Positions 3 through 19,890 of a stretch of DNA of 30,534 bases are shown here, in pieces; within the stretch, counting starts at the first letter, position 1, and each line of letters opens with the position of its first letter. The stretch comes from a virus, in IMG/VR virus record IMGVR_UViG_3300030333_002870, positions 1 through 30,534 of that record, one strand, 5' to 3'. The translations under genes were made by a program, and so were the position numbers. Under the pieces are notes generated by a model. That model was not told where the DNA came from and made no database searches. It saw nothing but the letters and a program-made list of their open reading frames with translations.

Positions 3-467
3 TTTGGAGCGGATAATAAAGTTGTTGGTGATATGTATGTTAGAAAAACATCTACTGCTACAAGGGGTAATATGTTTGTTCAAGGAAGTATGGCGGTTGG
101 TGGATTAGCAATTGATTCTTCTAACGAATTGTTCGTTGATGGAAACATAGCAGCCACAGGAAACATCACGGCATTTTTTACATCAGATGAAAGACTTAAA
201 AATAATATAATTAGAATTGAAAATGGGTTATCGATTGTAAATCAATTACGACCAATAGAATTTGAATGGGATGAAAAATCACCATTCTATCACGATAAAT
301 TTAGAGACTACGGATTACTCGCACAAGAAGTAGAAAAAGTTTTACCTAATATTGTTGGTGAAATGAAAGACGGATACAAAGGTATCAAGTATGAAAAAAT
401 AATACCATTCTTGATTGACTCAATACAACAATTAACAAAACGAGTCGAAGAATTAGAGGGTAAATAA
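3..467 (+). CDS. Tail fibre/spike C-terminus with S74 intramolecular chaperone (5' partial)
   Basis: The reading frame is open to the window's left edge, so only the C-terminus is present. Counting from the Met at base 33, residues 51-58 read SDERLKNN, the hallmark of the peptidase S74 intramolecular chaperone. In that family a Ser/Lys pair spaced by five (here S51 and K56) cleaves the chain just before the Ser after the trimer has folded. The rest fits the family: a YGLLAQEVEKVLP segment, a GYKGIKYEKIIPFLI segment and a C-terminal helix (IQQLTKRVEELEG) expected to form a trimeric coiled coil. The few residues before the motif look like beta-repeat fibre shaft (GNIAATGNITAFF). The chaperone is normally released from the mature fibre. 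The stop overlaps the next start by one base (TAATG), so the two are probably co-translated. The domain assignment is firm; which fibre it belongs to cannot be seen. Confidence 0.88.
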   Translation, partial: FGADNKVVGDMYVRKTSTATRGNMFVQGSMAVGGLAIDSSNELFVDGNIAATGNITAFFTSDERLKNNIIRIENGLSIVNQLRPIEFEWDEKSPFYHDKFRDYGLLAQEVEKVLPNIVGEMKDGYKGIKYEKIIPFLIDSIQQLTKRVEELEGK

Positions 468-1753
468 TGGCTTTAGCATCCTTTGCAGCAAATGTTACGA
501 TGTCAGCAAAAGACATCAACGAAGAACTTGGTATTTCAATAACATCTATGTTAGACTTTCAAGGAGCAGCAGCTTCATTTTCAGGTATTATTGATACCGA
601 AACCACAGAGGGTTTTGGTGCAGAAGCTATCGAAATGAAAGAATTTTATGGTAAAACTTTCTCAGCAGGTAGTGGTACATATGGTTCAAGAAATACTCAC
701 ACAATTAAATATCTAACTGATGCTGGCGCAGCACAAGCTTGGAGTTCAAATCAATTGATTCAATGTGCAGAAAATTCAAATACGAATATGTCAGCTGACA
801 CAAGTTTTAGTGCAAGAACAGAAACATATCACGTTGACGACTATATTGATAATGATTTAACCAATGGTGATGTTTTCTTTTTAAATGCGACAGGTACAGG
901 TAAGTTTGATGGAACTTCTGCAGCCGTGGATAGTGGTGGTGACGGAAGTAGATTTTACTTTGATGATACAGCAGATGATATAGTTCAAGTCAGTTCAACA
1001 GGTGTAGCAAGTAATGTTCGTTCAATAACACCAAGTGTTTTGACATTATCATTAGTTTCAAAAGACGACGATGAAATTACAGTAAGAGCAACAGGAAATA
1101 CACAAGTAACAAGAACTATAAGATTTTATAAAGATGGTAGTTCAGTAGCAACAAAAACTGCAGATGGTGGTGGTGGTAGTGATTTCAATGGTGGTGGTGT
1201 TGACGACACAAGTAGAACACAAGACTTTACTTTTTCAAGTTTAGCTTCCAATACAGCTTTTGCATTAAAAGCTAGAGCTGAAAATGCAGTTGCAAATAGT
1301 GCTGATTCCAATACACTTAATATAACAACCGACGCACCACCAGTAAGTTTCAGCGTTCCTGCAGATTTCAATTTATTTGTAGATGATGGAGAGAGTGATA
1401 ACGATGATAGCAATACATCAGGTGAAATACAAGTAACACTTACAAATGGTAGTGGTAATACAACAATTCAATGTCAACAACCAGACCACGCTGGTAGTGG
1501 TGGAACTGTTCCTAAATTACAAGTAAGAGCTGGAACAAGTTCAGGTGTTTATTCATCTGGTCTTTTCCAAAATTCAGTAACTCTTAGTAACGCATCAACT
1601 TACTTTATGATATTCAAATTACAAGAAAATGGAAATGATAATAATTACCCGAACGATGGTAGTGGACTAACTCAAGATAGAACAATTACATTTACAAATA
1701 GTGGTGTATCAAATACAGATTTACAAATTGCAATTAAGGTAGTAAATAGATAA
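467..1753 (+). CDS. Virion structural protein with fibronectin type III domain
   Basis: A 428-residue secreted-looking beta protein without signal peptide or membrane segment. Residues 12-64 (INEELGIS then IEMKEFYGKTF) match the MSDFYG-like module common at the N-terminus of phage virion proteins. Residues about 186-290 look like an FN3 domain: alternating strands, a Gly-rich loop (GGGG at 234-237 and GGG at 242-244), then LASNTAFALKARAENAVANS. Residues about 292-428 form a separate beta domain rich in Ser, Thr and Asn. Its NGSGNT and TFTNSGVSNTDLQIAI segments recur in the C-terminus of the gene at 2769-4181. FN3 modules in phages usually sit on tails or capsid surfaces and are thought to touch carbohydrate. 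No enzymatic motif is seen. It lies between the S74 fibre end and a glycosyltransferase with one-base overlaps on both sides. A fibre or fibre-associated protein is the best reading; the exact position in the virion is unknown. Confidence 0.75.
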   Translation: MALASFAANVTMSAKDINEELGISITSMLDFQGAAASFSGIIDTETTEGFGAEAIEMKEFYGKTFSAGSGTYGSRNTHTIKYLTDAGAAQAWSSNQLIQCAENSNTNMSADTSFSARTETYHVDDYIDNDLTNGDVFFLNATGTGKFDGTSAAVDSGGDGSRFYFDDTADDIVQVSSTGVASNVRSITPSVLTLSLVSKDDDEITVRATGNTQVTRTIRFYKDGSSVATKTADGGGGSDFNGGGVDDTSRTQDFTFSSLASNTAFALKARAENAVANSADSNTLNITTDAPPVSFSVPADFNLFVDDGESDNDDSNTSGEIQVTLTNGSGNTTIQCQQPDHAGSGGTVPKLQVRAGTSSGVYSSGLFQNSVTLSNASTYFMIFKLQENGNDNNYPNDGSGLTQDRTITFTNSGVSNTDLQIAIKVVNR

Positions 1754-2757
1754 TGGAATACGATGTTTATTATTCAACAGGTGGTTTAAATATGATTGGT
1801 GGTGGAGCTGATGTATGGGTGAACAAATGGTTAGAATTAATACCACAACACTTAAAAACTGAATCCAAGTTATTGATACATAGAACTCGTCCACCAGGTC
1901 ATCAACCAGATTGTCCTATGGAAGTTCATTGGCAAGGACACGATAGAAAAAAATTTAAAGAATTATTAGACAATGCCAGACGAATACATATTCTACACGG
2001 ATATTATTCACCGCATGTTTTCATAGAAGAAAATAAAGATAAAATACATAGTGTGGGAATACATTGTTCAGTAAAAGATATTATGAAAGCACAACACGTT
2101 TTAGGATTAGATAAAGGTTTTCATTTTTATATGGAACCAAGATGGGAAAACCAAATAAAATCTTATGCAAAATATCCATTTTGGATAGGTATTAATGACC
2201 CAAAGTGGAATGTTGAACACGACCATTTACTAACAATACCAAACTTTTATGAATTTAAACACAATAAAGATGTTGTGGACAGTAATAGAGTAGGTTTCGC
2301 CGCCAGAATGGAAACACGAAAATGTCCACACTTCTTAGAAGGTATTGATAGTTTAGTATTTACAAATGGTGCAGATGTTAGATGGTGGGAAAAAAACTTG
2401 AACACCGATACTTCTAAATGGAAGGTATATAATTATCGACACGAACAACACGATATGTTTATGAGACAAGATTGGGGTATAAGTCATTCAGCACATATCT
2501 ATGAACCATTTGGATACTCAATATTCCAAGCGGTTGATTGGGGTAAGATTCCTATATTGGCACACGATTGGTTGATAGATTATGATTATCCATTTAGAGC
2601 TTCAACACAAAAACAATTTAAAGAACAATATGAAAAGATTTGTAAATTATCATTACAAGAAAAAAGGGATATATTATTCCCATTACGAGAACATTTAAAA
2701 CAATGGGACAATAAAGAACAATGGAGAGATAGATTACTTGAAATATACAACGAGTAA
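1753..2757 (+). CDS. GT-B (GT4-like) glycosyltransferase
   Basis: 334 residues with the build of a retaining GT-B glycosyltransferase, which transfers a sugar from a nucleotide sugar in the cytoplasm. The N-terminal half has the Gly-rich start expected for an acceptor domain (YSTGGLNMIGGGADVWV, 7-23). The C-terminal Rossmann half opens with VGFAARMETRK (180-190), equivalent to the usual VGRL.xxKG donor-side motif. The segment at 251-268 (EPFGYSIFQAVDWGKIPI) corresponds to the E-x7-E nucleotide-sugar motif. Here E251 is kept but the second Glu is replaced by Gln259. The chain is somewhat short for GT4 (commonly 350-400). It starts in a one-base overlap with the preceding structural gene and is followed by another structural gene, an unusual place for a GT. 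That position suggests it glycosylates the neighbouring fibre proteins, which is inference. Confidence 0.72.
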   Translation: MEYDVYYSTGGLNMIGGGADVWVNKWLELIPQHLKTESKLLIHRTRPPGHQPDCPMEVHWQGHDRKKFKELLDNARRIHILHGYYSPHVFIEENKDKIHSVGIHCSVKDIMKAQHVLGLDKGFHFYMEPRWENQIKSYAKYPFWIGINDPKWNVEHDHLLTIPNFYEFKHNKDVVDSNRVGFAARMETRKCPHFLEGIDSLVFTNGADVRWWEKNLNTDTSKWKVYNYRHEQHDMFMRQDWGISHSAHIYEPFGYSIFQAVDWGKIPILAHDWLIDYDYPFRASTQKQFKEQYEKICKLSLQEKRDILFPLREHLKQWDNKEQWRDRLLEIYNE

Positions 2758-2769
2758 TATTTATTAATA
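2757..2769 (+). promoter_or_regulatory. 13-bp AT-rich element shared with 6411-6423
   Basis: The 13 bases ATATTTATTAATA bridge the stop of the glycosyltransferase gene and the ATG at 2769, and recur exactly at 6411-6423. These are two of the very few spots in the first 27 kb where genes do not overlap. The repeat could be a phage promoter or an mRNA processing/translation signal, but in DNA this AT-rich coincidence is possible. No good Shine-Dalgarno precedes the ATG at 2769. Confidence 0.25.
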
Positions 2770-4181
2770 TGGCAACATCTACAAAACAAAACTTATCATT
2801 AGGAAAACTTCGTAGAGCAGTAGACGGAAATGATTCATATACTGCAGCTATGAGTATGTCCCAAGCAAGTGGTAGTTCAGCTACTTCACCGGCACCAGTC
2901 AAGATGTCTGACTTTTCAATAAGTGCAGTTGACGAGGGTGTGAGTGGATTCACTTATTTGTTTGAACAAACAGCAGAAAACTATGAAATGGAATTTAGTA
3001 ATGAAGGTAGTTTATTTAATAAAAGAATTGCAAACAGAACTGAAAATCTTTCTTGGTCTTTTGATGGAAATCTTGATGTAACTTTTGGTGGAGCAGATTA
3101 CATAGCACAAGTTACGGCAGGTTCAATAACAAATACGGATGGAGCAATCGCTGGAACATTCAATCAAAGTGGTAGTATCAAAGCAAAATTTGCAGAAGAC
3201 GGACAATCAGACGGATTCAATGACCACGCAACACGATACAACACAAGTGTTTCCAAATCAATAGAAATCGTAGATACTTATGGTGGTGTTCCGAGTTGTT
3301 TATTGTTTGGAAGTCAAGTTAGTAAATCAGATGGAAGTGTTGTTAATGTAGAGGACTTAAATATTGGTGATGAAATACTTTCTTTATCTTTACAAGGTTC
3401 TACCGACGAGAGTGAGGGTGATTGGGAAAGTGACACATTCAATAGAACAGGAAGTTTTACTGAACACTCAGCCAGTGTAAAAAGAGTTATGTATGAGTTT
3501 GCTAATAGTTATTACGATATAAATAACGGACAAGAAAAAATTACAGGTGAACACCATATGTTATATAGAAAAGCAGGTAACGAAAATTGGGTGTGGAAAA
3601 CTGCACCTACATTTGATGTTGGTGATTATCTTATGGATAAAAATGGAAACGAGGTACTTATAGATTCAATAGTGCCTAATGTTAATATTGATGGATACGA
3701 GGTAGTTCAATTAGATGTTGAACCAAATGACTTTTATATAGGACAAAAGTTTTTAGTACACAATAAAGGTAGTAATGACGAACCAACTTATCCTTCAACT
3801 AAGTTCACAACTGCACCAGGTGATTTTACTATGGCAGGTAGTTTAGGAGATACCGTAATAACTGACTTTGTTGCAACAATACAATTAGCAAATGGTAGTG
3901 GTAACACAGCAATCACTAAAACACAAACAAGTGCAGGAGCAGTAACATTAACAGTTGCGTTCTCAACAAGTGGAGACCCTGGTACAAGTGGAACTGACAA
4001 TAGTGGTACAGGTTTTGTATCATTTCCTAAAAATGACTTATCATTTACGAGTGGAACACTTCGTATGAGATTCAAAGCAGTTGCAGCTGGAAGTGGAGAT
4101 GGAACAGGTTCAGCAACAATATCATTCACAAATAATGGAGTAACAAATTCAGATTTAGATATCACATTGAATTTTACATAA
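2769..4181 (+). CDS. Virion structural protein containing a Hint (intein-like) domain
   Basis: 470 residues. Residues about 5-52 carry the phage structural N-terminal module (LSLGKLRRAV, then SMSQASG and VKMSDFSI). Residues 177-332 are a Hint domain: Cys177 at the first splice-type junction, VEDLNIGDEIL (194-204), a block-B TxxH (T259, H262), DVGDYLMDKNGNEVLI (283-298), and the C-terminal FYIGQKFLVHN ending His331-Asn332. The residue after Asn332 is Lys, not the Cys/Ser/Thr needed for canonical protein splicing. Cleavage or ligation like bacterial intein-like (BIL-B) domains is therefore more likely than clean splicing. Length (156 residues) fits a Hint domain with no homing endonuclease. Residues about 340-470 repeat the C-terminal beta domain of the 467-1753 protein (NGSGNT; SFTNNGVTNSDLDITL). 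The architecture is directly readable; the processing outcome is inferred. Confidence 0.8.
   Translation: MATSTKQNLSLGKLRRAVDGNDSYTAAMSMSQASGSSATSPAPVKMSDFSISAVDEGVSGFTYLFEQTAENYEMEFSNEGSLFNKRIANRTENLSWSFDGNLDVTFGGADYIAQVTAGSITNTDGAIAGTFNQSGSIKAKFAEDGQSDGFNDHATRYNTSVSKSIEIVDTYGGVPSCLLFGSQVSKSDGSVVNVEDLNIGDEILSLSLQGSTDESEGDWESDTFNRTGSFTEHSASVKRVMYEFANSYYDINNGQEKITGEHHMLYRKAGNENWVWKTAPTFDVGDYLMDKNGNEVLIDSIVPNVNIDGYEVVQLDVEPNDFYIGQKFLVHNKGSNDEPTYPSTKFTTAPGDFTMAGSLGDTVITDFVATIQLANGSGNTAITKTQTSAGAVTLTVAFSTSGDPGTSGTDNSGTGFVSFPKNDLSFTSGTLRMRFKAVAAGSGDGTGSATISFTNNGVTNSDLDITLNFT
3297..3764 (+). other. Hint domain coding segment (Cys177 to Asn332)
   Basis: Marks the codons from the junction Cys (TGT at 3297) to the terminal Asn of the His-Asn pair (codon 3762-3764). 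Visible landmarks are Cys at position 1, the T-G-E-H block-B tetrad, the hydrophobic FYIGQKFLVHN block and no endonuclease insertion. The flanking sequence reads smoothly as beta-rich virion protein on either side. Confidence 0.75.
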
Positions 4182-4182
4182 T

Positions 4183-4878
4183 ATGAAAAAATTTAAGTAT
4201 TTGGTTGTAAACGGATGTAGTTATAGTGCAGGAGGTTGTATGTATGTTGCAGGTGATGCGCATGATGATAAAGAACAAGTAGCAAAATCAAGATTAAACA
4301 GATTCTCAAAAAAACTATCAGAAAAACTTAATTGTGAAGAAATAAATTTATCAGCATCTGGTGGTTCAAATCAAAGAATATTCAGAACCACTTTTGATTG
4401 GATACAAAAAAATAAAGAAAAGGTAAAAGATACTTTATTTGTTATTGGACTAAGTGGGCCAGCAAGGGTAGATTTATATTCCAAACACGAAAATAGATAC
4501 ATATGTGGTCAACCATTTTATAGTGGGCCAAGTGTAAAGTTAATAGCAGAAAAGATGGGTTGTTCAGTTGATGAGGTTTGGGGTTGGGTTAACTTTAAAA
4601 TAAACTATACTTATGAAGAAAAAGAAGTTATCAAAGAAATAAAACGAGAATGTATAATCTTAAATAAGTATGTAGATGGTAATGCCATATTTTTTAACGC
4701 TTTGAGAAATATTAACATATTTATAGATGAAGTGGATTATATGAGTTTTGGTGAACATAATACTTGGCAAGACTTTGTAGGTATAGAAGTTGGACATCCA
4801 AAAGAAAATCATCATCACGAAATGGCTGATAGGTTATACAAACATATACAAAAAAGTTATGAAGAAAACAATACTTAA
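4183..4878 (+). CDS. SGNH-hydrolase-like protein 1
   Basis: 231 residues resembling the SGNH/GDSL hydrolase superfamily, whose members are esterases, lipases or O-acyltransferases/deacetylases acting on sugars and lipids. Block I is NGCSYSAGG (10-18) with candidate nucleophile Ser13. The ASGGSNQRIFR segment supplies a Gly/Asn oxyanion block. LFVIGLSGPARVD is the central strand with a small-residue turn. GHPKENHHHEMADRL near the C-terminus supplies candidate catalytic His205 followed by an amphipathic helix. It is the first of five paralogues in this window that share this GCS/GDS-IGxS-HP layout. It begins one base after the preceding stop and overlaps the following methyltransferase by 20 bases. 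Cytoplasmic: no signal peptide. Substrate unknown; acyl modification of a glycan made by the neighbouring transferases is the likeliest role. Confidence 0.65.
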   Translation: MKKFKYLVVNGCSYSAGGCMYVAGDAHDDKEQVAKSRLNRFSKKLSEKLNCEEINLSASGGSNQRIFRTTFDWIQKNKEKVKDTLFVIGLSGPARVDLYSKHENRYICGQPFYSGPSVKLIAEKMGCSVDEVWGWVNFKINYTYEEKEVIKEIKRECIILNKYVDGNAIFFNALRNINIFIDEVDYMSFGEHNTWQDFVGIEVGHPKENHHHEMADRLYKHIQKSYEENNT

Positions 4879-5563
4879 TCACGAATATATAGAACAAGAA
4901 ATAACCACTAACGATAAACAATCGGACACCAAATATCGTTGGTCGCATGGCGCTACCGATAATCATATGGGAGACGGAATCATAGTTTACTCTATGATGT
5001 ATTTCTTTAAACCAACAATATCAGTATGTTTAGGAAGTGGTGGTGGATTTATTCCAAGAATAATGTGGAAGTGTGTATCGGATTTAAACGAAGAGGGATT
5101 CAATACTGATGAATCAAGAGTTATATTAGTGGATGCGGTTAACGGAGTAAACGGACATCCAGATTGGACTGATAAAGATAGTTTTTATCGTAACAACTTT
5201 TTATCCGAATGGTTACACACTACAACAGAAAAAGCATACTATGAATTTTTTGTGAAAAGAGATATGAAGATTGATTTATTATGGATTGACGCAGACCACA
5301 CTATCGAAGGTATCAAAAAAGATTTTGATATGTATTCACAAATAATGAATGACAACGGAATAATAATGATACACGATACAGATAAAAATTATGTGGACAA
5401 TTTTATTGAAACAGAGGAACACGAGGACTACGATTTATCAGGCCCAAGTGAATTTATTAAAACTTTGGATAGTGATAAATTTGAAATACTAAATCTATTT
5501 AATTACGGAATAGAAAAAGACTTTCCAAGTTCAACAGGCATAACAATAGTGAGGAAGAAATGA
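4859..5563 (+). CDS. Class I SAM-dependent methyltransferase-like protein 1
   Basis: With the ATG at 4859 the protein has 234 residues. A TTG 69 bases further upstream would also be in frame, but the added residues come from a stretch fully coding in the other frame, so the ATG is preferred. Motif I is ISVCLGSGGGFIPR (54-67), the glycine-rich SAM loop. An acidic strand end follows at VILVDAVNG (88-96). LLWIDADHTIEGIKKDF (140-156) and GIIMIHDTD (167-175) match the WIDGDH and GG-I-HD pair of the Methyltransf_24 group, which often methylate sugars or act in capsule clusters. A second protein of the same group is encoded at 22524-23231. It sits between an SGNH protein and a glycosyltransferase, so sugar O-methylation is a reasonable guess. 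The acceptor is unknown. Confidence 0.65.
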   Translation: MKKTILNHEYIEQEITTNDKQSDTKYRWSHGATDNHMGDGIIVYSMMYFFKPTISVCLGSGGGFIPRIMWKCVSDLNEEGFNTDESRVILVDAVNGVNGHPDWTDKDSFYRNNFLSEWLHTTTEKAYYEFFVKRDMKIDLLWIDADHTIEGIKKDFDMYSQIMNDNGIIMIHDTDKNYVDNFIETEEHEDYDLSGPSEFIKTLDSDKFEILNLFNYGIEKDFPSSTGITIVRKK

Positions 5564-6399
5564 ATTTAGTTACGGTTTGTGGACACAACACAACAATGTT
5601 ATATCATATGTTAAATCATTATCATTTACATATGGACGAGATATTTGTAGTTTTGTATGCACATCATAAAAAAGACCCGGTTATAGAACAAGGATTACAT
5701 ATCTTAGAAAAGTTTAATTTAAAACCACACAAGATAGTTTATGAAAGACCATTTGATTGGGCACGAGTTACAGAACATTACAATGAAACCAAACTACTAA
5801 AACCAAACGATTGGTGGATAGTAGCAGATGACGATGAATTACAATTATATTCTAAACCAACATATCAGATTATTGAGGAGTGTGAAGAGTACGGATATGA
5901 CTTTGTTACAGGTGGTTTTGTAGATAGAATAGGAGATGACGGAGATTTTCCTAAGATTACTTTAGAATCAAATGTATGGGAAGAAATGCCAGAAGCAGGT
6001 TTTTTCAGATATCCAATGAGTAAAGCATGTCCAAATAAAGTTACATTGATGAAAGGTAATGTCAAAGTATCTAATGGACAGCATTATGTAGAGTTTGAAG
6101 ACGGAACAACATCTTGGGGTAAAGAACATCCAAAAAGATATCCAATAGAAAAGAACTTTACACAAGTTCATCATTTTAAATGGGACTACTCGGTGTTTGA
6201 TAGATTACAAGAAGTAGGAAAGTCATCAATTGGTGAATCGTGGGCACACGAATATCGATTGATGTATAATGAAATAAAAGATAATGATTTTAAAATAGAC
6301 TTAACAGCAAGAGAATTTATGTTTCAAAGATTAGATAAACCAAACTATCATCAATTAAGACATTGGGATAGGTTGACAAAAAAAATTGTATCGATTTAA
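5560..6399 (+). CDS. Glycosyltransferase, GT2-like (Glyco_tranf_2_4 type)
   Basis: 279 residues of a GT-A type transferase. The N-terminal Rossmann part (MNLVTVCGHN, then HMDEIFVVLYAH) leads into WWIVADDDELQLY (85-97), where D90-D91-D92-E93 is the metal/nucleotide-sugar DxD motif. The C-terminal half has VHHFKWDYSVFDRL (203-216), a His/Lys/Trp signature seen in the Glyco_tranf_2_4 and GT92-like families close to the active site. No membrane helices are present, so it is soluble. It starts in an ATGA overlap with the methyltransferase stop. It is followed by one of the few spacers in this block. Donor and acceptor sugars cannot be read from sequence. Confidence 0.72.
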   Translation: MNLVTVCGHNTTMLYHMLNHYHLHMDEIFVVLYAHHKKDPVIEQGLHILEKFNLKPHKIVYERPFDWARVTEHYNETKLLKPNDWWIVADDDELQLYSKPTYQIIEECEEYGYDFVTGGFVDRIGDDGDFPKITLESNVWEEMPEAGFFRYPMSKACPNKVTLMKGNVKVSNGQHYVEFEDGTTSWGKEHPKRYPIEKNFTQVHHFKWDYSVFDRLQEVGKSSIGESWAHEYRLMYNEIKDNDFKIDLTAREFMFQRLDKPNYHQLRHWDRLTKKIVSI

Positions 6400-6450: not shown

Positions 6451-6645
6451 ATGCCACAAGAAAACAAAAAAGAGTTAATGTTAGAAGAAAGAAAAGTAAA
6501 AGCACTTGAGAAAATTGCTAATGTTCTTGATGCTTTGACACTTTGGTTCGAAGACATTGATAAAGAGGAATGGTCAAATAGGTCACAATGGTATTTGGCT
6601 GAGTTCCACAAAAAGTATATAGAAGAAGAAACAGAAGATAAGTAA
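6451..6645 (+). CDS. Small acidic helical protein, unknown function
   Basis: 64 residues, very rich in Glu and Lys, with a predicted continuous amphipathic helix (ERKVKALEKIANVLDALTLW, 12-31) that could dimerise. The second half is aromatic (WSNRSQWYLAEFHKKYI) and the tail is acidic. No catalytic motif is present. It has its own good Shine-Dalgarno (AAGGG, eight bases upstream) after a spacer with the repeated 13-bp element. It ends in a TAATG overlap with the GT7-LamG gene, so it is translated as a coupled leader to that gene. It may be an adaptor or regulator for the glycosyltransferases that follow. I do not recognise the family. Confidence 0.7.
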   Translation: MPQENKKELMLEERKVKALEKIANVLDALTLWFEDIDKEEWSNRSQWYLAEFHKKYIEEETEDK

Positions 6646-8102
6646 TGAAACTTGGAATAATTGTCCCATATCGTAAACGACCGGGACATCTTCGTAAGTT
6701 TCGTCAATCTATTGAATCTTATTTGAAAGGCCAAGATTATCAATTAATCGTGGTTGAACAATCAGACGATTTACCATTTAATCGTGGTAAATTGTTGAAC
6801 ATAGGATTTCAGTATGCGGTAAGACAACAATGTGATTATGTTGTATTTCACGATGTTGATATGTTGCCAGTAGATGTAGATTATTCTTATTCAGATGTTC
6901 CAACTCATCTTGCCACAGGATTTACCAATAGGCATGGTGAAACTTCAAACAGAGAAGTATTTGATACATACTTCGGTGGTGTAACTTTATTTCCAATTGA
7001 TTTATTCAAAAAGGTAAATGGTTATTCCAATGAATATTGGGGATGGGGATTTGAAGATGATGACTTGTTAATGAGATTAACAGAGCAACACATTTTTACC
7101 GATACCACTTACTACGAAGTTCCCAAATTAAATACATCAGCTTTGTATCTACACGGAGATAAAAGTTATATACAATGTCCTAACAATATAAATCTAAACA
7201 AAGACTTTACACTACACATATCTTTTAAACCAGATGAAATTGTACCTGACTACAATAAAATGTTTGACGAATATTGTGTGTTTAGTATTGAGGGTTGGGA
7301 TACAACAATTGCATACAATTCTTTCAATAGATATAAATTTGAATATTGGGATGCTGAAAAAAATTGTCATCAAATTACATCAAAATATTCTTATCCTAAA
7401 TTTACCAACATTACAATTACTTACGACAGACACGAAAAATATTTGTCAATGTATCAAGACGGAGTAAAAATTGGTGAACATATATTAAAAAGTAAATTTT
7501 TAGATACAAAAAAAGCTTGGTTCAATATTGGTATTGGAGCGACAGATAGAGATGATGACATAAAAAGTTTTCGTGGTTATGTAAATGAGTTTGCTTATTG
7601 GGACAAACAATTACAACCAAACGAAATAAAAGAGTTACACGAATCACAAGGATTTAGTCTACTAAACAACTATGAACAATATAGTAGTTCATACAATCTA
7701 AAAACTTATTATGATTTCAAACACATCAAGTTAAAGTCAGATTATTTTTATGATGAAGGTAAAATGTTAAACTTAAAAACTAATGAATATGACGCATTAA
7801 CCTTTCATTGTATTCCAAAAACATTTCATTCGATTGAGAGAAAAGAAATATCTATTCCCGCCAGACGACAATCGAAGTTTGAAATGTTAAAGCATGAATC
7901 AGAAGGTTACCAAGAGGGTGGATATGGTAGAGTTTCTGGTGGTTGGAAAACTGAATCAACACGACTAAATCAGATTAGATTTTACAATCAAGTTCGTAAT
8001 AATCAAACTGAGTTAGCAACAGATGGATTAACATCATTAAAGTTTAAAGGTGTTTCTAAAACTGAACAAGACAACTATACATTTATATCGGTGGAGTTAT
8101 GA
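6645..8102 (+). CDS. GT7 (beta-1,4-galactosyltransferase-like) enzyme with inserted LamG domain, copy 1
   Basis: 485 residues with every landmark of family GT7: IVPYRKR (6-12), FNRGKLLNIGF (45-55), the metal-binding DVDML (70-74), and the signature WGWGFEDDDLLMR (132-144). The family C-terminal part appears only at about 405-485: RRQSKFEMLKH with candidate metal ligand His416, then TDGLTSLKFKGV and a closing YTFISVEL. These match the RR..HxxD and SDGLNSLxYxV ends of vertebrate beta4GalT. Between the halves lies a LamG/concanavalin-like module, about 164-335. It starts ALYLHGDKSYIQCP, continues FTLHISFKPDE and closes with GYVNEFAYWDKQLQPNEIKEL, the classic LamG last strand and helix. The lectin-like domain is therefore nested inside the transferase. 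It should transfer Gal or GalNAc-type sugars from UDP-sugar; the insert may hold the acceptor glycan. Its stop overlaps the next start (ATGA). Confidence 0.82.
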   Translation: MKLGIIVPYRKRPGHLRKFRQSIESYLKGQDYQLIVVEQSDDLPFNRGKLLNIGFQYAVRQQCDYVVFHDVDMLPVDVDYSYSDVPTHLATGFTNRHGETSNREVFDTYFGGVTLFPIDLFKKVNGYSNEYWGWGFEDDDLLMRLTEQHIFTDTTYYEVPKLNTSALYLHGDKSYIQCPNNINLNKDFTLHISFKPDEIVPDYNKMFDEYCVFSIEGWDTTIAYNSFNRYKFEYWDAEKNCHQITSKYSYPKFTNITITYDRHEKYLSMYQDGVKIGEHILKSKFLDTKKAWFNIGIGATDRDDDIKSFRGYVNEFAYWDKQLQPNEIKELHESQGFSLLNNYEQYSSSYNLKTYYDFKHIKLKSDYFYDEGKMLNLKTNEYDALTFHCIPKTFHSIERKEISIPARRQSKFEMLKHESEGYQEGGYGRVSGGWKTESTRLNQIRFYNQVRNNQTELATDGLTSLKFKGVSKTEQDNYTFISVEL

Positions 8103-9544
8103 AGTTAGGAGTTTGCATACCATATCGTGATAGTGGAGATGGAGTTCGTCAAGGACACTTGGATAGGTTAATACCACACTTAGAAGAATTTTTAGGTAAA
8201 CAAGGTATTGACTTTACTTGTTATGTAGGACATCAGATTGATTATGAAAAGTTTCATAGAAGTGGGACTAAAAATGTTGCATATTTACAAGCAAAAAAAG
8301 ATGGGTGTGACTATTTTGCATTTCACGATGTTGATATGTTACCTTATGATGATTGTTATTATGGACATCCTGGCGATACACCAAAACATATAGCAACTTG
8401 GTTATCACAATGGGGTTATACTTTACGAGATACAGAATACTTTGGTGGAGTAGTGATATTCACAGCAGAACAATTTGAAAAAATCAACGGATACAATACT
8501 GAATATGTTGGTTGGGGTATGGAAGATGATGATTTGTATTGGAGATGTGTGAAAAAGGGTTATTTTGTTCAACCAACTTTTGATACAATTAAACAAAAAA
8601 TGGTTTTATCATTAGATGGAAAATCTACTTGTATCAAAGTTAATCCTTCAAGACAACTAAAAAGAATACCTACTGATAGTTTTAAAATAGAAGTTATTTG
8701 TAAACCTGAAATACCCGAACACGAGCCAGAACATTTAATTGGTAAAGGAAACAATAGATATCTTAAGTATCCAATTTTATCAAAAATAGGATATGATTTT
8801 GGTATAGATTATAATAATAGTAATGCTTTCGCATCATCAATGTGGGATTGGAAAAACCAACACATTTATCGTTGGAGACGAAGATATCAAAACAATTGGA
8901 CAAAAGTTAGTTTGATACACGACAAAGACAACAAAAAAATCAGTTTTCAAATCAACGACCAAGACTTAGGAGAAAAGTTTGGTATTCAACAATCAACAAT
9001 TGAGTATGAAGAAAAATTAAAACGATATGGAAACAATCCTTTTTGGATTGGTTGTAATGACCCACTTGCTTGGGAAGGACAAAGATTTTTCAAAGGAGAA
9101 ATAGCAGAAGTAAAGATGTGGGATGCTTATGATGAATTAGTTTTACATTACGATATGACAAAGTCAATATGTTGCGACCAAGGTTGTCGTAGATGTAAAG
9201 AAAATATTGTAAAAGACTTAAGTGGTTATGAAAACCACGGAGAAATACAAAATCGTGGGATTAGATTTTTACAAAATACAGAAGTAATTAAATTAAATCC
9301 AGAACCACATAGAAGATATGGAACTATGGAGTGTATGTATCACGATGATGAAGGAATAATTAATAATCAATTTCAAGGAGATGTAGAACAAACATCTAAG
9401 AATGAAATACTATATAGAAAGAAAATGCAAAAGGGTGAAGTTGATATCGATAAATCAGGATTGAACTCTATGAAATATAAAATAGATAGTATTGATACTA
9501 TTTATAATAGACACAAGTTAATTAATGTAAGGTTTAATGGCTAA
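8099..9544 (+). CDS. GT7 (beta-1,4-galactosyltransferase-like) enzyme with inserted LamG domain, copy 2
   Basis: 481 residues, tandem paralogue of the preceding gene. IPYRDSGDG (7-15), HDVDML (76-81) and YVGWGMEDDDLYWR (136-149) give the GT7 donor and acceptor sites. The FNR motif is degenerate (FHRSGTKNVAYLQA, 52-65). The nested LamG runs about 167-392: MVLSLDGKSTCIKVN, FKIEVICKPE, FFKGEIAEVKMW and the diagnostic DLSGYENHGEI (373-383). The GT7 fold resumes with PHRRYGTMECMYHDDEG (403-419), including candidate metal ligand His415, and SGLNSMKYKIDSI (453-465). A Cys cluster (ICCDQGCRRC, 357-366) in the late LamG part may bind metal or form a structural site. The Shine-Dalgarno GGTGGAG lies inside the previous gene. 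The sequence differs enough from copy 1 to suggest a different donor or linkage. Confidence 0.82.
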   Translation: MKLGVCIPYRDSGDGVRQGHLDRLIPHLEEFLGKQGIDFTCYVGHQIDYEKFHRSGTKNVAYLQAKKDGCDYFAFHDVDMLPYDDCYYGHPGDTPKHIATWLSQWGYTLRDTEYFGGVVIFTAEQFEKINGYNTEYVGWGMEDDDLYWRCVKKGYFVQPTFDTIKQKMVLSLDGKSTCIKVNPSRQLKRIPTDSFKIEVICKPEIPEHEPEHLIGKGNNRYLKYPILSKIGYDFGIDYNNSNAFASSMWDWKNQHIYRWRRRYQNNWTKVSLIHDKDNKKISFQINDQDLGEKFGIQQSTIEYEEKLKRYGNNPFWIGCNDPLAWEGQRFFKGEIAEVKMWDAYDELVLHYDMTKSICCDQGCRRCKENIVKDLSGYENHGEIQNRGIRFLQNTEVIKLNPEPHRRYGTMECMYHDDEGIINNQFQGDVEQTSKNEILYRKKMQKGEVDIDKSGLNSMKYKIDSIDTIYNRHKLINVRFNG

Positions 9545-10958
9545 AAAAAGACACAGATTAGAAAATCCACACTATTCTGAGATGGAAAGAAAACTTAATG
9601 AAGTTGGACCCGGTATGTGTTTGGCTAAGTGGACACAAGTCACACTACAATTGCAAACAGGACACAATCATAGTTGTCACCATCCAAGAACACACAAAAT
9701 CAATCTAAAAGAGATTGCACGAAATCCAAGTGCCCTACACAATACACAATACAAAAAACTTCGTAGAAAAGAAATGTTAACAGGTAAAAGGCCAGTTGAA
9801 TGTGATTATTGTTGGAATGTAGAGGATAATTCAGATAGATTTTCAGACAGAACATTTAAGTCAAACGAAAGTTGGTCAAGACCACATTTTGATGAAATCG
9901 TAAATCAAGATTGGAGAGAAGATTTTAATCCAAGATATGTAGAGGTGGCATTCTCAAATGCTTGTAATTTTAAATGTAGTTATTGCGCACCTGCTTTCTC
10001 AACAACTTGGATGGAAGAAATAAAAAACTATGGAGCTTATCCAACAACTGATGAATTTAATTCACTTAAATACAATAAACTTGAAGATAAATTACCAATA
10101 CCACAAAGAGAAAGTAATCCTTACGCAGACGCATTTTGGAAATGGTGGCCAGACCTTTATCAAGATTTACACACATTTAGAATCACAGGTGGTGAACCAC
10201 TATTAGCACAAGATACTTGGAAAGTATTAGATTATGTTCTTGAACAAAAAGAACCAAACAAAAAATTAAATCTTTCAATTAATTCTAACCTTGGTGTGCC
10301 AGATAATTTGATTGATAAGTTGATTGAAAAACTAAAAAGAATTGAAGACGAGGAAAGAGTTAATGAATTAGTAATTTTTACATCAGTTGATACTTGGGGT
10401 GAACAAGCTGAATATATTCGACACGGATTAGAGTTCAATCGTTTTTGGTATAACTTAGAAAAAATACTATCATCATTGGATAGAGTAGTTGTGACAATTA
10501 TGTCTACTTACAATGCACTATCAGTTCCAAACTATTCTAAATTAATTGACGGAGTTTATGATTTAAAAAGAAGATATGGTTCATCAGATAGATATTGGAA
10601 CTCAGCAGTGTTTTTAGATTCAAGCTATTTAAGATATCCAACACATCAAACTGTTCAAGTCCTAAGTGACTATTGGAATCCAAAAATATTTGAACACGCA
10701 CAATTAGCAGACTTTTATTCTATTCCAAACTTTGAAAAACAACATTATGGATTTTCAGATACAGAAATACAAAAACTAAAAAGAATATGGGATTGGAAAA
10801 TTGCAGAATGGGACGGAAAAGAAGAACAAGTTAGAGAACATAGATATAACTTTGGTAAGTTTTTTAAAGAACACGATGTAAGAAGAGGAACAGATTTTAG
10901 AAAGGCATTTCCTGAGTTAGAATCATTTTATGTTGAGTGTTTGAGGATGAAATTGTGA
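9537..10958 (+). CDS. Twitch-domain radical SAM protein
   Basis: 473 residues. The radical SAM CxxxCxxC motif is CNFKCSYC with Cys143, Cys147 and Cys150, which bind the 4Fe-4S cluster that cleaves S-adenosylmethionine. TGGEPLL (217-223) is the SAM amino-group motif. The N-terminal stretch has GHNHSCHHP (42-50) and VECDYCWNVE (87-96), extra Cys that fit the twitch-type auxiliary cluster region. A Cys at about 470 near the C-terminus may complete it. The family is recurrent in marine T4-like phages, where its product is unknown. It sits between the GT7-LamG enzymes and a free LamG protein, so it may modify a peptide, a fibre protein or a sugar precursor. It overlaps the upstream gene by eight bases with an AAGG Shine-Dalgarno. 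Assignment to radical SAM is firm; the substrate is not visible. Confidence 0.85.
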   Translation: MAKKRHRLENPHYSEMERKLNEVGPGMCLAKWTQVTLQLQTGHNHSCHHPRTHKINLKEIARNPSALHNTQYKKLRRKEMLTGKRPVECDYCWNVEDNSDRFSDRTFKSNESWSRPHFDEIVNQDWREDFNPRYVEVAFSNACNFKCSYCAPAFSTTWMEEIKNYGAYPTTDEFNSLKYNKLEDKLPIPQRESNPYADAFWKWWPDLYQDLHTFRITGGEPLLAQDTWKVLDYVLEQKEPNKKLNLSINSNLGVPDNLIDKLIEKLKRIEDEERVNELVIFTSVDTWGEQAEYIRHGLEFNRFWYNLEKILSSLDRVVVTIMSTYNALSVPNYSKLIDGVYDLKRRYGSSDRYWNSAVFLDSSYLRYPTHQTVQVLSDYWNPKIFEHAQLADFYSIPNFEKQHYGFSDTEIQKLKRIWDWKIAEWDGKEEQVREHRYNFGKFFKEHDVRRGTDFRKAFPELESFYVECLRMKL

Positions 10959-11611
10959 TAAAACTTAATGGAAAAGGTTGTTGGCTATTAGCAAATTATA
11001 GTCGTAATATGGTTTCAACTTACACAACAAAACAATTAGTAAATGATGATTTTGAAATAAAGGTTGATTGTAGAGTACATTGGCAAAAAATAATAAAGTC
11101 TGGAGTACACTACACAGGAGTAGTTTGTTTTAATGGAGCACACTTTGGTATTTTGTGTAAATATTATAACGGATATGCTATGATATCAGCTGAAGTTTGG
11201 TCTGAACACGAAGGTAAGAATATTGTTAACGAAGCTCAAGTTTTGATAAGAGATGATAAATTAAAAGAAGATGATTGGAGAGAGATAAGATTAATTTATA
11301 AGAAGAATGAATCAATCACTATTGTAACTACTGAAGGTAGAGAAACAACAGAAATACAAGGTGAAATATTAGATTACGCAGGTTCATATATGTGGGTTGG
11401 TTGTTGTGATAATCACAAACACACACCTAAAGAATATCAAGGAGATTGGTATGGTGAAATAAGAACTATATCGGTACACGGAAAAGATAGATATTTTGCT
11501 GATTATGACTTCAATAAAAAGACTCGATACAAAGTTTATGATAATAGTGGTAATGGAAATCACTTAATTGCTAAACATTTAAATGAGGAAGGATTTATAA
11601 TAATTTACTAA
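10955..11611 (+). CDS. Free-standing LamG (concanavalin-like) domain protein
   Basis: 218 residues when started at GTG 10955. That start gives a GTGA overlap with the radical SAM stop and a GAGGA Shine-Dalgarno seven bases upstream; another GTG at 10937 has no such signal. The protein is essentially one LamG domain: a first strand (IKLNGKGCWLLANY), FEIKVDCRVHWQ, paired strands with WREIRLIYKKNESITIV, YMWVGCCDNH and YGEIRTISVHG. It ends with VYDNSGNGNHLIAKHL, the Asp-x-SGNGNH motif that closes many LamG modules. No catalytic motif or signal peptide is present. It corresponds to the insert of the two GT7 genes just upstream but without the transferase halves. Probably a carbohydrate-binding accessory protein for glycan synthesis, or a virion lectin. 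Confidence 0.7.
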   Translation: MIKLNGKGCWLLANYSRNMVSTYTTKQLVNDDFEIKVDCRVHWQKIIKSGVHYTGVVCFNGAHFGILCKYYNGYAMISAEVWSEHEGKNIVNEAQVLIRDDKLKEDDWREIRLIYKKNESITIVTTEGRETTEIQGEILDYAGSYMWVGCCDNHKHTPKEYQGDWYGEIRTISVHGKDRYFADYDFNKKTRYKVYDNSGNGNHLIAKHLNEEGFIIIY

Positions 11612-12039
11612 TGATACTAATATCACATAGAGGAAATATAAATGGTTCAAAGCCAGAGATGGAAAACAAACCAGAGTATGTACAACAAGCATTAGATTTA
11701 GGATATGATGTAGAAATAGATGTTTGGCTAATAGATGGTAATTTTTTCTTAGGACACGACGAACCACAATATCAAGTTCACGGAACTTTTTTGATGAAAA
11801 AAGGTTTGTGGTGTCACGCTAAAAATATCGACGCATTTTATCTTATGAGTCTTGATAGTAGAGTACATTGTTTTTCACACGATAGAGATGAAGTAGCATT
11901 AACATCAAGAGGATATTTTTGGTCATCGTCAGAAAATGAAATGACAAGTAAATCCATTTGTGTTATGCCATCAGACTATATAGATTTACCAAAAAATATA
12001 GCAGGGGTTTGTTCAGATAATATAGGAAGTTATAAATGA
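11611..12039 (+). CDS. Mini glycerophosphodiester phosphodiesterase-like protein
   Basis: 142 residues with the active-site landmarks of the GDPD/PI-PLC-like TIM barrel: SHRGN (5-9, catalytic His6), EIDVWLIDG (35-43, metal ligands E35 and D37), and FLGHD (46-50, second catalytic His49). GLWCHAKN then supplies a Lys/His strand. The late part, VHCFSHDRDEVALTSRGYFW followed by SICVMPSD, matches a short phosphodiesterase group found in phages and environmental bacteria. Usual GDPDs are about 250 residues, so this is roughly half a barrel, perhaps dimeric or a minimal form. GDPDs hydrolyse glycerophosphodiesters; here the target could be a glycerol-phosphate or sugar-phosphate substituent of a surface glycan. 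One-base overlap upstream, ATGA overlap downstream. Confidence 0.62.
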   Translation: MILISHRGNINGSKPEMENKPEYVQQALDLGYDVEIDVWLIDGNFFLGHDEPQYQVHGTFLMKKGLWCHAKNIDAFYLMSLDSRVHCFSHDRDEVALTSRGYFWSSSENEMTSKSICVMPSDYIDLPKNIAGVCSDNIGSYK

Positions 12040-12869
12040 AAAAATTAATATTATGTGACGGAGATAGTTGGACTGCAGGAGATATAATAAATCCTGAACT
12101 TAAATTATCAGGTGAAGAACATCCGTATGTTAATCATCCAAAAAATGATGATTACAGATTACCAAAAGTCTGGCCACATAAATTAGGTAAATCACTAAAT
12201 ATTGATGTTTTAAATATAGCTCACGCTGGTAGTTCAAATGATGGTGTTGTTCGTAGGACAACGAGAAAAGTAAAAGAATTGTTATTAGAATACAAAGCAG
12301 AAGACTTGTTCGTAATAATAGGTTGGTCGTCGCCAGAGAGAAAAGATTTTTATTATAGGGGAGAGCATGAGTCTTGGGAAACTATTTATCCTGCTCAGGG
12401 ATTTTCTTATGATGAAGATTTAAAAAATTTCTATAATACATATGTAGAAAAATTTTGGAATGATGTTGAGTATGTTGAAAGATATATACAACAAAACTTA
12501 TTACTACATTACTATTTAAAGGAACACAATATAGACCATATATTTTTTGACGCATTTTATGAAACTAAAGGTGAAAGAAGTCTCTTCAATTCTACTGACA
12601 TTGACGACATAATTATAAAAGTAGGATACGATACAAAAGGTCACTATGAATTAATAGAATACTTTTTAGAACTCAAAAAAGAATTTACATTAGACACTAC
12701 TTTTAGAAATTATTTGCTTGACAAAGATAAACCATTTACCTACGAGGGTGAAGAGCTTCATTCATTTAAAGAAGACACATTTGATGATGAGTTTCACCAC
12801 CCATCAGAATTAGGACACAAACAATGGGCTAACTACTTAAAGGATAAGTTATATGAAAAAATTGTATGA
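12036..12869 (+). CDS. SGNH-hydrolase-like protein 2
   Basis: 277 residues. Block I is LCDGDSWTAGD (6-16) with candidate nucleophile Ser11, a nearly canonical GDSxTxG. NIAHAGSSNDGVVRRT carries the Gly and Asn oxyanion block, LFVIIGWSSPERKDFYY the central strand, and FHHPSELGHKQWANYL the C-terminal candidate His255 and helix. A middle insertion (about 115-190) is mostly helical and aromatic. No signal peptide is present, so it acts in the cytoplasm. ATGA overlap with the GDPD-like gene; overlaps the next gene by 17 bases. It is more GDSL-like than copies 1 and 4 and closest in pattern to the copy at 26810-27574. Likely esterase or acyltransferase/deacetylase on a glycan; the substrate is unknown. 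Confidence 0.66.
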   Translation: MKKLILCDGDSWTAGDIINPELKLSGEEHPYVNHPKNDDYRLPKVWPHKLGKSLNIDVLNIAHAGSSNDGVVRRTTRKVKELLLEYKAEDLFVIIGWSSPERKDFYYRGEHESWETIYPAQGFSYDEDLKNFYNTYVEKFWNDVEYVERYIQQNLLLHYYLKEHNIDHIFFDAFYETKGERSLFNSTDIDDIIIKVGYDTKGHYELIEYFLELKKEFTLDTTFRNYLLDKDKPFTYEGEELHSFKEDTFDDEFHHPSELGHKQWANYLKDKLYEKIV

Positions 12870-13617: not shown

Positions 13618-14230
13618 GTTAATTATATTTGATTTGGATGGAGTGTTAGTTGATGCGAAAGAAATACATTACAACGCACTAAATAAAGCACTTAAAAACA
13701 TAGACAAAAAATATGTTATCAATCGTGATGAGCATTTATCTATGTATGATGGAAATCCTACAAGAACAAAATTAAAAATGTTATCACAACAAAAAGGGTT
13801 ACCATACGAACTACACGATACCATTTGGGAGGACAAACAAAATTTAACGATACAAATGATTAATGATTTAGAAGAGGATGAACGACTAATTAATGTATTG
13901 GAACGATTAGAACAAGATGGATATATATTGTGTTGTGCAACTAATTCAGTTAGACATAGTGCAACAATACAACTAACAAGAAGAGGTTTTATTGACCACT
14001 TAGAATTTGTATTTACTAATCAAGATGTGGTAAATCCAAAACCAAATACAGAAATTTATTTAAGATGTATGATTAAAGCTGGAGTTAGTCCAAAAGAAAC
14101 AATTATATTAGAGGATTCAGAATTAGGGAGAAAAGGTGCAAGAGCAACAGGTTCGCCAGTGTTGGAAATAGAAAACTCTGCTGATGTCACCTATCGTAAG
14201 ATACGAAAGTTTATTGATAATGTCAAGTAA
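13610..14230 (+). CDS. HAD-superfamily phosphatase, beta-phosphoglucomutase-like
   Basis: 206 residues starting at GTG 13610, with a strong GGGGAG Shine-Dalgarno six bases upstream, and overlapping the previous stop. All HAD motifs are visible: FDLDGVLVD (7-15; nucleophile Asp8, acid/base Asp10), CATNS (109-113), NPKP with Lys144, and LEDSELGRKGARATG (167-181; E168 and D169 metal site). The helical cap between motif I and II is the C1 type of beta-phosphoglucomutase and sugar phosphatases. It hydrolyses or isomerises a sugar phosphate in the cytoplasm. Within this cluster a role in preparing a phosphorylated sugar precursor, for example after the NeuB-like step, is plausible. Confidence 0.82.
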   Translation: MTKLIIFDLDGVLVDAKEIHYNALNKALKNIDKKYVINRDEHLSMYDGNPTRTKLKMLSQQKGLPYELHDTIWEDKQNLTIQMINDLEEDERLINVLERLEQDGYILCCATNSVRHSATIQLTRRGFIDHLEFVFTNQDVVNPKPNTEIYLRCMIKAGVSPKETIILEDSELGRKGARATGSPVLEIENSADVTYRKIRKFIDNVK

Positions 14231-14999
14231 AAAATACAAAAATATTTACATAAATGGTTGTAGTTTTACAGCAGGACACCATCTTTTATATGAATCATCT
14301 TGGCCATATCTATTGGGTAAAAAGTTAGGATTAAACACCATAAGTAGAGCGGTCAACGGACAATCTTTTGATTCTATTTTTGTTAATACTATCAATCATT
14401 TAAGTATGTTAAATTCTGATGATACACTTGTGGTCGTTGGTACAACTTGGTCTACAAGATACTCAGTAGCTTTTGACGAGATTACAGGAAATGTAACACC
14501 AGTTGATGTGGTGGGTGAAAACACACACAAAAAATTAAAAGAAAACTTTGATGATAAAATACATCGTGATAGAAGACTATCATCACCATATACTTTTGAC
14601 AAATCAGAAATAAACGAATTGTATTATAAATTTTATGGGCGAGGTGATATTGGTAGACCAACTGAAAAAAAACAAAGATTCGATAAATTAATGATGTCTT
14701 TTGTAGAGTATTACGAATCAAGGTTAAAATATGATAACAATCTAATAAATAATCAACAATTAAATTTGTTGACAAAAATTGTAGCATTAGAGGGATTTTT
14801 AAAAAGTAATAATTTTAATTACAGGTTTATAGATTTTGCTGGTGAGACAAAAGTACAACACAATATTATTGACTTATTGGATAAGGAAAAAATTATAACT
14901 TTTGATGATGTATGGAAAGACAAATATGTTGAAGGGCATCCAACACAAGAGGGTGCAATAAATGTAAGTGAGGTTTTATATGATAGCTTTAATAGATAG
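14220..14999 (+). CDS. SGNH-hydrolase-like protein 3
   Basis: 259 residues from the ATG at 14220, which overlaps the HAD stop by 11 bases. An ATG at 14184 is in frame, but its extra 12 residues fall in sequence coding for the HAD C-terminus. Block I is INGCSFTAGH (11-20) with Ser15. SRAVNGQSFDSIFVN carries the Gly block, LVVVGTTWSTRYS the central strand, and VEGHPTQEGAINVSEVL the candidate catalytic His240. A long helical middle follows the RRLSSPYTF region. No signal peptide is present. It is one of five paralogues here; identity between copies looks low outside the blocks, so they probably act on different positions or sugars. Confidence 0.62.
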   Translation: MSSKKYKNIYINGCSFTAGHHLLYESSWPYLLGKKLGLNTISRAVNGQSFDSIFVNTINHLSMLNSDDTLVVVGTTWSTRYSVAFDEITGNVTPVDVVGENTHKKLKENFDDKIHRDRRLSSPYTFDKSEINELYYKFYGRGDIGRPTEKKQRFDKLMMSFVEYYESRLKYDNNLINNQQLNLLTKIVALEGFLKSNNFNYRFIDFAGETKVQHNIIDLLDKEKIITFDDVWKDKYVEGHPTQEGAINVSEVLYDSFNR

Positions 15000-16251: not shown

Positions 16252-16627
16252 AAATTACTACAATGGTAAACATAATATAATCAAACCAAATATGTCATTG
16301 AAAGACGAGGCATTTAAGATTAGAAAACAAGAGTTAGATAATGATGAAGTTTTTTCTGGCAATCTGATACTAAGAAAAGAATTTGATAATTTAGATTATG
16401 ACAAAATATTTTCATTACCATTGGATGATAACTTGATTTATGTTAATGATGTTAACTATTCACACAATCATCTTGAGTGTAGTATTGATGATAGTATTAT
16501 TTATTGTGGTTCTTTTGTATTGTGGTTTTTAGGAAATCATCATAGAAACAATCAATCTTTATTTGCAGATATTCGTTCACATAGAATTTTTCCTAAAAAC
16601 ATATGGGAGGCGTTAGATGAATTATGA
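16241..16627 (+). CDS. Hypothetical protein, 128 residues
   Basis: Unrecognised. Starts at ATGATG 16241 (either Met possible) with an AGGA a few bases upstream, inside the end of the preceding gene. It encodes a soluble acidic protein with an N-terminal helical part (SLKDEAFKIRKQELDNDEVF) and a compact mixed half with LIYVNDVNYSHNHLECSIDD. A hydrophobic CGSFVLWFLGNHHRNNQS segment follows and is too short and polar to be a membrane helix. Pairs of His (NHHR; SHNH) could bind metal, but no family motif is seen. Overlaps both neighbours, so it is co-translated with the glycosyltransferase-like gene upstream and the SGNH gene downstream; it may be a partner of either. Confidence 0.6.
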   Translation: MMNKNYYNGKHNIIKPNMSLKDEAFKIRKQELDNDEVFSGNLILRKEFDNLDYDKIFSLPLDDNLIYVNDVNYSHNHLECSIDDSIIYCGSFVLWFLGNHHRNNQSLFADIRSHRIFPKNIWEALDEL

Positions 16628-19582: not shown

Positions 19583-19890
19583 AATATGTAATCGATATAG
19601 ACGGAACAATTTGTAAAGAAGTCGGTGAGGTAATCGGTAGAGAACCTTATCTTGATAGAATTGCAAAAATAAATAAATTGTATGATGAAGGACACACAAT
19701 AGTTTTTTACACTGCTCGTGGATTAAAGAGTGGTAGAGGTGAAAAACATTATCGTCCAATCACAGAACAACAACTAAAAGAGTGGGGATGTAAGTATCAC
19801 GAGTTGTGTTTTAAGGGACACAACGGAGATTACTTCATCGATGATAGAGGAATAAACGCAGGAGATTTTTTCAATGAAACAAAAGTGTAA
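19579..19890 (+). CDS. Small HAD phosphatase, capsule-biosynthesis type
   Basis: 103 residues, a cap-less HAD protein. VIDIDGTIC (4-12) gives nucleophile Asp6 and Asp8, FYTARG (43-48) gives motif II Thr45, Lys79 (CFKG) is candidate motif III, and YFIDDRGINAGDF (85-97) gives the metal-binding Asp88-Asp89. This size and the DIDGTIC/YTARG/DDR pattern match short phosphatases annotated in polysaccharide clusters. It dephosphorylates a small sugar or glycerol phosphate. It lies directly upstream of a sugar nucleotidyltransferase. The pair could clean up or generate sugar phosphate intermediates; it may also serve the NeuB product (9-phosphate removal). Confidence 0.78.
   Translation: MKYVIDIDGTICKEVGEVIGREPYLDRIAKINKLYDEGHTIVFYTARGLKSGRGEKHYRPITEQQLKEWGCKYHELCFKGHNGDYFIDDRGINAGDFFNETKV

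Follow-up and report, generated by a model that had tools for sequence, protein, structure and literature searches.

A LamG domain nested inside the GT7 catalytic domain of tandem glycosyltransferases from uncultured T4-like phages

Two adjacent genes of an uncultured virus encode GT7 glycosyltransferases, A and B, in which a LamG domain of ~240 residues splits the catalytic core, separating the xED (EDDD) helix from the metal-binding His segment. The split is well supported, and the design, common to hundreds of uncultured aquatic phages, appears to be undescribed. It is an even prospect, in our judgement, that A and B are active metal-dependent GT7 enzymes whose LamG domain selects or holds the acceptor, and that they act in the cytoplasm, most likely on virion tail proteins. 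We place somewhat less than even confidence in a broader proposal: that they belong to a large glycosyltransferase family whose GT7 domain is split by a circularly permuted LamG that presents the acceptor to the active site, and which forms the core of cytoplasmic tail-fibre glycosylation in T4-like aquatic phages.

Domain composition of the tandem proteins

The window, by which we mean the whole stretch of DNA analysed, comprises 30,534 nucleotides (positions 1 to 30,534 of IMG/VR virus record IMGVR_UViG_3300030333_002870). The ORFs of A and B overlap, with coordinates exactly as first noted in a sequence-only reading of the region (6645-8102 and 8099-9544). The relevant features are the following.

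3..467, + strand: C-terminus of a tail-fibre gene with S74 intramolecular chaperone (PF13884, E 5e-15; PHROG tail-fibre families)
1753..2757, + strand: conserved glycosyltransferase-like protein upstream of the block (weak PHROG glycosyltransferase match; homologue in 121/271 loci)
4790..5563, + strand: methyltransferase (Methyltransf_24) of the conserved block (PF13578, 38.9 bits; TTG start uncertain)
5560..6399, + strand: GT2-like glycosyltransferase of the conserved block (weak PF13704; E 3e-5 in homologue L085)
6645..8102, + strand: protein A (485 aa), GT7 enzyme with LamG inserted in its catalytic domain (Pfam GT7N/GT7C/LamG_3, AF2, Foldseek)
6645..7094, + strand: A, GT7 N-terminal part, residues 1-150, with DVD (D70, D72) and WGWG-EDDD (phmmer to beta4GalT7/1, E 7e-25; conservation)
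7098..7841, + strand: A, LamG insert, ~residues 152-399, including the trailing YYDF..NL segment (full-length Laminin_G_3; missing from LamG-less bacterial GT7)
7842..8099, + strand: A, GT7 C-terminal part, residues 400-485, with C-His (H417), N442 and DGLTSL (C-segment profile; conservation)
8099..9544, + strand: protein B (481 aa), second GT7 of this kind, divergent and likewise interrupted by LamG (Pfam, AF2, Foldseek)
8570..9289, + strand: B, LamG insert, ~residues 158-397 (Laminin_G_3 slightly under cut-off; LamG-fold Foldseek matches)
9290..9541, + strand: B, GT7 C-terminal part (PHRRYGTMECMYH..SGLNSM; matched by the bacterial GT7 tail profile)
9537..10958, + strand: radical SAM protein with a twitch domain, following B in the conserved block (NCBIfam NF033640, 340 bits, cut-off 170)
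10937..11611, + strand: stand-alone LamG-like protein, 224 aa (LamG-insert core HMM, E 5e-7; tail motif YDF..DNSGNGNH in the sequence; no match in a Pfam profile search)

Pfam domains follow the same order in both proteins: GT7N, the first part of GT7C, then Laminin_G_3. Protein A matches GT7N over residues 2-82 (E 5e-19, 68.7 bits), GT7C over residues 106-150, equivalent to positions 16-60 of the 78-position profile (E 2e-16, 59.6 bits), and Laminin_G_3 over residues 171-329, equivalent to positions 2-151 of 151 (E 1e-13, 52.2 bits). Protein B matches GT7C at E 3e-20 (71.9 bits) and GT7N at E 8e-15 (55.1 bits), and the GT7N and GT7C matches of A and B all lie above the curated cut-offs. The Laminin_G_3 match of B (E 9e-6) scores 26.3 bits, just under the curated cut-off of 27.6, so the LamG of B is borderline by sequence; the lectin fold of its insert is supported by Foldseek matches to 4dqa, pentraxins and neurexin LNS. 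Matching to GT7C ends at about profile position 60-63 of 78 in A and B, where the insert starts. In phmmer searches, the N-terminal ~150 residues of A and ~155-170 of B find beta4GalT1 and beta4GalT7 (E ~1e-19 to 1e-25). At E <= 0.01, the GT7 profiles match all 63 aligned relatives and Laminin_G_3 matches 57 of them.

Probable completion of the GT7 fold behind the insert

A profile built exclusively from the C-terminal segments of the family (residues 400-485 of A) matches every LamG-less bacterial GT7 in the test set, with E-values from 2e-7 to 0.007, and no reversed or unrelated decoy scores above threshold. The ORFs above threshold that carried the decoy label OTHER are GT7 relatives missed by the regular expression; one of them, L105, appears to be a marine family member. 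Reciprocally, a profile of the bacterial tails matches A at residues 408-484 and B at 413-479; hhalign pairs the family C-segment with bacterial GT7 tails at E 2e-12. Searched against the PDB, the C-segment profile finds beta4GalT1 at the right place but weakly (E 0.06), among chance matches to arenavirus GP2. Judged by the comparisons with bacterial GT7, the post-LamG segment of A and B is a real GT7 C-terminus.

The spacing of the conserved elements is consistent with this assignment. In LamG-less bacterial GT7, ~28 residues that include a short turn separate the EDD motif from the next His; A has these ~28 residues too, divided between the two flanks of LamG and ending in ISIPARRQSKFEMLKH. 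The insertion is clean, because, discounting the insert, the distance from EDD to His is ~28 residues whether or not a protein has LamG.

AlphaFold2 produced confident single-chain models of A (pLDDT 91.7, pTM 0.87) and B (pLDDT 88.3, pTM 0.85). Behind the insert, the model of A runs through a strand, the His, a low-confidence loop (427-429), a helix (437-450) and two strands, which is the GT7 order after the xED helix; we take the loop to sit where beta4GalT1 has its mobile lid. LamG is joined to the enzyme at the distal end of the xED helix, a place taken up by no more than a short turn in LamG-less enzymes. With Foldseek, the glycosyltransferase part aligns to beta4GalT1/7 over ~155 columns with rmsd 1.2-3.1 A for most matches (155 columns and 1.3 A for B), and the inserts of A and B match LamG-type folds. 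These local alignments span either the glycosyltransferase half or LamG and not a bridged fold, as a local alignment cannot cross the insert. Among the best 50 matches in BFVD, each apparently covers the glycosyltransferase part or the LamG part and none the whole chain, the best query TM being 0.41.

Conservation was assessed in 326 distinct full-length proteins, 325 of them with the insert and one a LamG-less bacterial outlier. The metal-binding and catalytic residues are kept in nearly all (D70 99%, D72 98%, E137 91%, D138 96%, H417 94%), as are P405, N442 and G461 (99% each), and the enzymes A and B are likely active by this measure. The site of Met344, the other metal ligand of beta4GalT1, is M in A but mostly C or S among the relatives, which may mean a different preference for metal or donor. 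The insert measures 206-302 residues in the 325 relatives (median 243), against 31 residues in the outlier. Chance fusion or assembly error is excluded, because all 325 distinct relatives have the insert.

That an ordinary tandem fusion or annotation artefact has placed a LamG domain behind a truncated and inactive GT7 is suggested by the Pfam GT7C match and the local Foldseek alignments, which both stop at the insert. We regard it as highly improbable in view of the recovered C-terminal segment, which is conserved together with its His and homologous to GT7 C-termini, of the catalytic residues retained in hundreds of relatives, and of the confident single models. The sequence-only reading had described a GT7 catalytic domain with LamG nested in it, in two tandem proteins, and both indeed show GT7N and partial GT7C, then LamG, then the GT7 C-terminus. 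Its further claim that the architecture is functional and not a chance fusion agrees with the constancy of the insert and the catalytic residues. The outcome it had set against itself, GT7 models ending before LamG with no C-terminus behind, is absent: Pfam GT7C stops at the insert and the GT7 C-terminus recurs after it. The acceptor-binding surface that it would place directly at the active site is a more speculative part of the reading, which is supported in part.

Evolution and possible role of the LamG domain

A YDF..DxSGN segment precedes the core in 12 of the 12 ordinary bacterial LamG_3 proteins in which it is detectable, the individual matches being weak (E 0.001 to 0.84). In the GT7 inserts and in the stand-alone phage LamGs the segment follows the core, and from this motif order the LamG of the GT7 inserts looks circularly permuted. 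The insert is the most variable part of the protein, with a median pairwise identity of 21%, against 48% for the N-terminal and 27% for the C-terminal part. Groups A, B and C of the glycosyltransferase tree recur in the LamG tree, which argues that insert and enzyme were inherited together. Two LamG-less planctomycete proteins fall near the A group of the tree, on a long branch and with modest support, so a single origin of the LamG insertion is unproved.

Not all LamG_3 domains bind carbohydrate. It is conceivable, if fairly improbable, that the domain is not a lectin but serves protein-protein docking or oligomerization, assembling the stand-alone LamG with A, B and C into a single complex. 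A, B and the stand-alone LamG are co-encoded, pentraxin-like folds, which oligomerize, are among the Foldseek matches, the LamGs have diverged strongly in sequence, and a ligand site has not been identified. Nothing direct stands against docking; LamG-type domains in phages have been reported as tail-associated lectin domains (PMC7824862). We favour LamG as an acceptor selector on three grounds: how the domain folds, how variable it is, and the example set by the lectin domains of other glycosyltransferases.

Under this preferred reading, the ConA-like domain of ~240 residues was inserted where a short turn connects the xED helix to the strand leading to the C-His; in this well-supported split, the chain would make most of the GT-A fold, exit into LamG and return to complete the active site. 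LamG might then dock a glycan or protein acceptor on the outside of the enzyme, as an acceptor-selecting module.

Occurrence and genomic context

The search for this domain architecture in viral metagenomes, as the sequence-only reading had suggested, shows that ~500 IMG/VR loci encode relatives: two pattern scans returned 497 and 460 confirmed loci in overlapping sets. Among 50,697 phage records of INPHARED, tblastn with A, B, two divergent relatives, the radical SAM protein, the GT2-like protein and the methyltransferase gave no match; the search itself works, since a control endolysin gave 777 records. Few full-length LamG-containing matches were found in 84,980 bacterial and archaeal genomes. 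Some of these, NAT55 (L083, L084) and L086, are probably viral contigs in MAGs, and L086 is nearly identical to the viral locus L059 in the tree. The same block of A, B and radical SAM genes is present in L085, which comes from a Pelagibacterales MAG. L087 and L088 form their own branch, L088 being located on a 66 kb contig with bacterial-looking neighbours. A literature search for LamG with GT7 or galactosyltransferase in phages, most subscription papers lying outside its scope, found no paper.

The gene neighbourhood was counted in 147 distinct viral loci, which were chosen for holding A or B, labelled A or B by best BLAST match, and have flanks cut by contig ends. The conserved block consists, in order, of a methyltransferase, the GT2-like gene, two to three GT7-LamG genes, the twitch radical SAM gene and often a stand-alone LamG gene. 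A and B are adjacent in 131 of the 147 loci; the GT2-like gene is found upstream of the GT7-LamG genes in 130, the methyltransferase upstream of the GT2-like gene in 121, the radical SAM gene downstream in 128, and the full block in 108. Many loci contain a third paralogue, C, and a stand-alone LamG gene follows radical SAM in 48 of 79 cases.

The carriers of the block are uncultured T4-like phages. The T4 capsid protein gp23 is encoded in 16 of 19 large related contigs, and it was not found in the 42 kb record to which the window belongs. In the window, the end of the S74 fibre gene is followed by the block, a 27 kb island with NeuB, cytidylyltransferase, nucleotidyltransferase and aminotransferase genes, and then an endolysin. 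Where related contigs have an S74 tail-fibre gene, it lies 3.8-17 kb upstream of GT7-LamG on the same strand in 14 of 16. Tail-fibre genes together with a glycosyltransferase island, as in the T4-like host recognition cluster, are thus present in the window and in related contigs. By a simple hydropathy rule, none of 2549 plus-strand viral ORFs of at least 200 aa encodes a polytopic membrane protein with at least four TM segments; a bacterial control for the rule gave 17 of 328 ORFs with at least six hydrophobic segments.

In the pathway we have in mind, A, B and, in some phages, C would act in sequence with the GT2-like, methyltransferase and radical SAM proteins to make a decorated glycan in the host cytoplasm, from sugars that may be supplied by the same gene island. 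The weakest step concerns the target, which would be a protein on the virion surface; the foremost candidate is the large tail fibre, whose gene lies just upstream. A tail protein is suggested by the gene position and by the lack of flippase or polymerase genes.

The block might alternatively modify the O-antigen or another surface polysaccharide of the host, thereby blocking superinfection or competitors, with GT7-LamG extending lipid-linked precursors that a host flippase exports. This is the published view for glycosyltransferases in the pelagimyophage host-recognition cluster (PMC7029224), and the island contains sugar-biosynthesis genes for a NeuB family protein, a cytidylyltransferase and a nucleotidyltransferase. 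Proximity to the fibre fits as well, as fibre and surface-modifying genes share pelagimyophage hypervariable regions (PMC7029224). We consider host surface modification a serious rival but the less likely reading, since genes for a flippase, a polymerase or any other polytopic membrane protein are missing from the surroundings of every copy and the block adjoins tail-fibre genes in most contigs.

Discussion

A and B share with beta4GalT1, beta4GalT7 and LamG-less bacterial GT7 the GT7N and GT7C domains, the DVD, WGWG-EDDD, C-His and DGLxSL motifs and the order of elements, with ~31-36% identity in most structure alignments. They differ from them by the ~240-residue LamG between the xED helix and the C-His, and by the mostly C or S equivalent of Met344. 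In GT27 polypeptide GalNAc-transferases and GnT-IVa, the lectin domain is appended behind the catalytic domain and not nested within it. It offers a parallel to the proposed role of LamG in that a lectin-type domain tunes acceptor choice or activity, as far as the available text of the two sources goes (PMC4432651, PMC9296478), and differs in that it is not LamG_3. A GT-A domain interrupted by an insert and completed afterwards is known from PGAP4, the GPI-GalNAc transferase, where a pair of transmembrane helices is proposed to bring enzyme and acceptor together (PMC5785973). That insert is, however, a membrane hairpin with no lectin fold, in a different, eukaryotic enzyme (PMC5785973).

Three hypervariable acceptor loops are the sites at which insertions have been catalogued in GT-A enzymes (PMC7185993). 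The insertion point of LamG is outside these three regions, as mapped by the order of elements and not by superposed structures. The pelagimyophage and cyanomyophage host recognition cluster is similarly a T4-like hypervariable island with tail fibres, glycosyltransferases and radical SAM genes; GT8 is reported as the most represented family, and galactosyltransferase has no mention and the GT7-LamG block no description in the available text of PMC7029224.

The catalogued GT-A insertion sites do not include the one used here, where an entire lectin-fold domain separates the xED helix from the C-His and has been kept in hundreds of phage enzymes. If LamG selects the acceptor, these enzymes would be a natural case of specificity set by a nested domain. 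The GT7-LamG family offers a handle on the role of the glycosyltransferase islands near T4-like tail-fibre genes, which has so far been a matter of conjecture only.

Gene content of the island and a possible cellular counterpart

The window carries, besides the tandem GT7-LamG genes, the following features:

2769-4181 (+), virion-type protein, Ig-like in appearance, that contains an intein-like or Hint segment (CLLFGSQV...FLVHNKGSN)
4183-4878, 12036-12869, 14184-14999, 16617-17423 and 26810-27574 (all +), DUF6071-like proteins
10937-11611 (+), stand-alone LamG protein, immediately 3' of the radical SAM gene
within 18193-25996 (all +), NeuB-family synthase, KdsB-like cytidylyltransferase, nucleotidyltransferase, HisC-like aminotransferase and 2-hydroxyacid dehydrogenase
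27725-28594 (+), Zeta-toxin/AAA-type kinase, just 5' of the endolysin

The five genes within 18193-25996 suggest a phage-encoded pathway that would yield an activated acidic sugar (nonulosonate- or Kdo-like). The stand-alone LamG protein was not recognized in a Pfam search; genes like it follow the radical SAM gene in 48 of the 79 cases detected. The five DUF6071-like proteins, part of whose matches fall below the curated cut-off, are scattered across the island, and one is also weakly GDSL-like. The kinase matches a function-unknown PHROG (E 2e-31). The protein with the intein-like or Hint segment draws only a weak Intein_splicing match from Pfam (E 0.03); it may be a surface protein that processes itself.

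On the bacterial contig L088 (5941-13410), a GT7-LamG gene of the B type is followed by one glycosyltransferase-like gene, then by an ABC transporter and HlyD/TolC-like genes (named by eye), an arrangement that suggests a cellular version linked to type I secretion.
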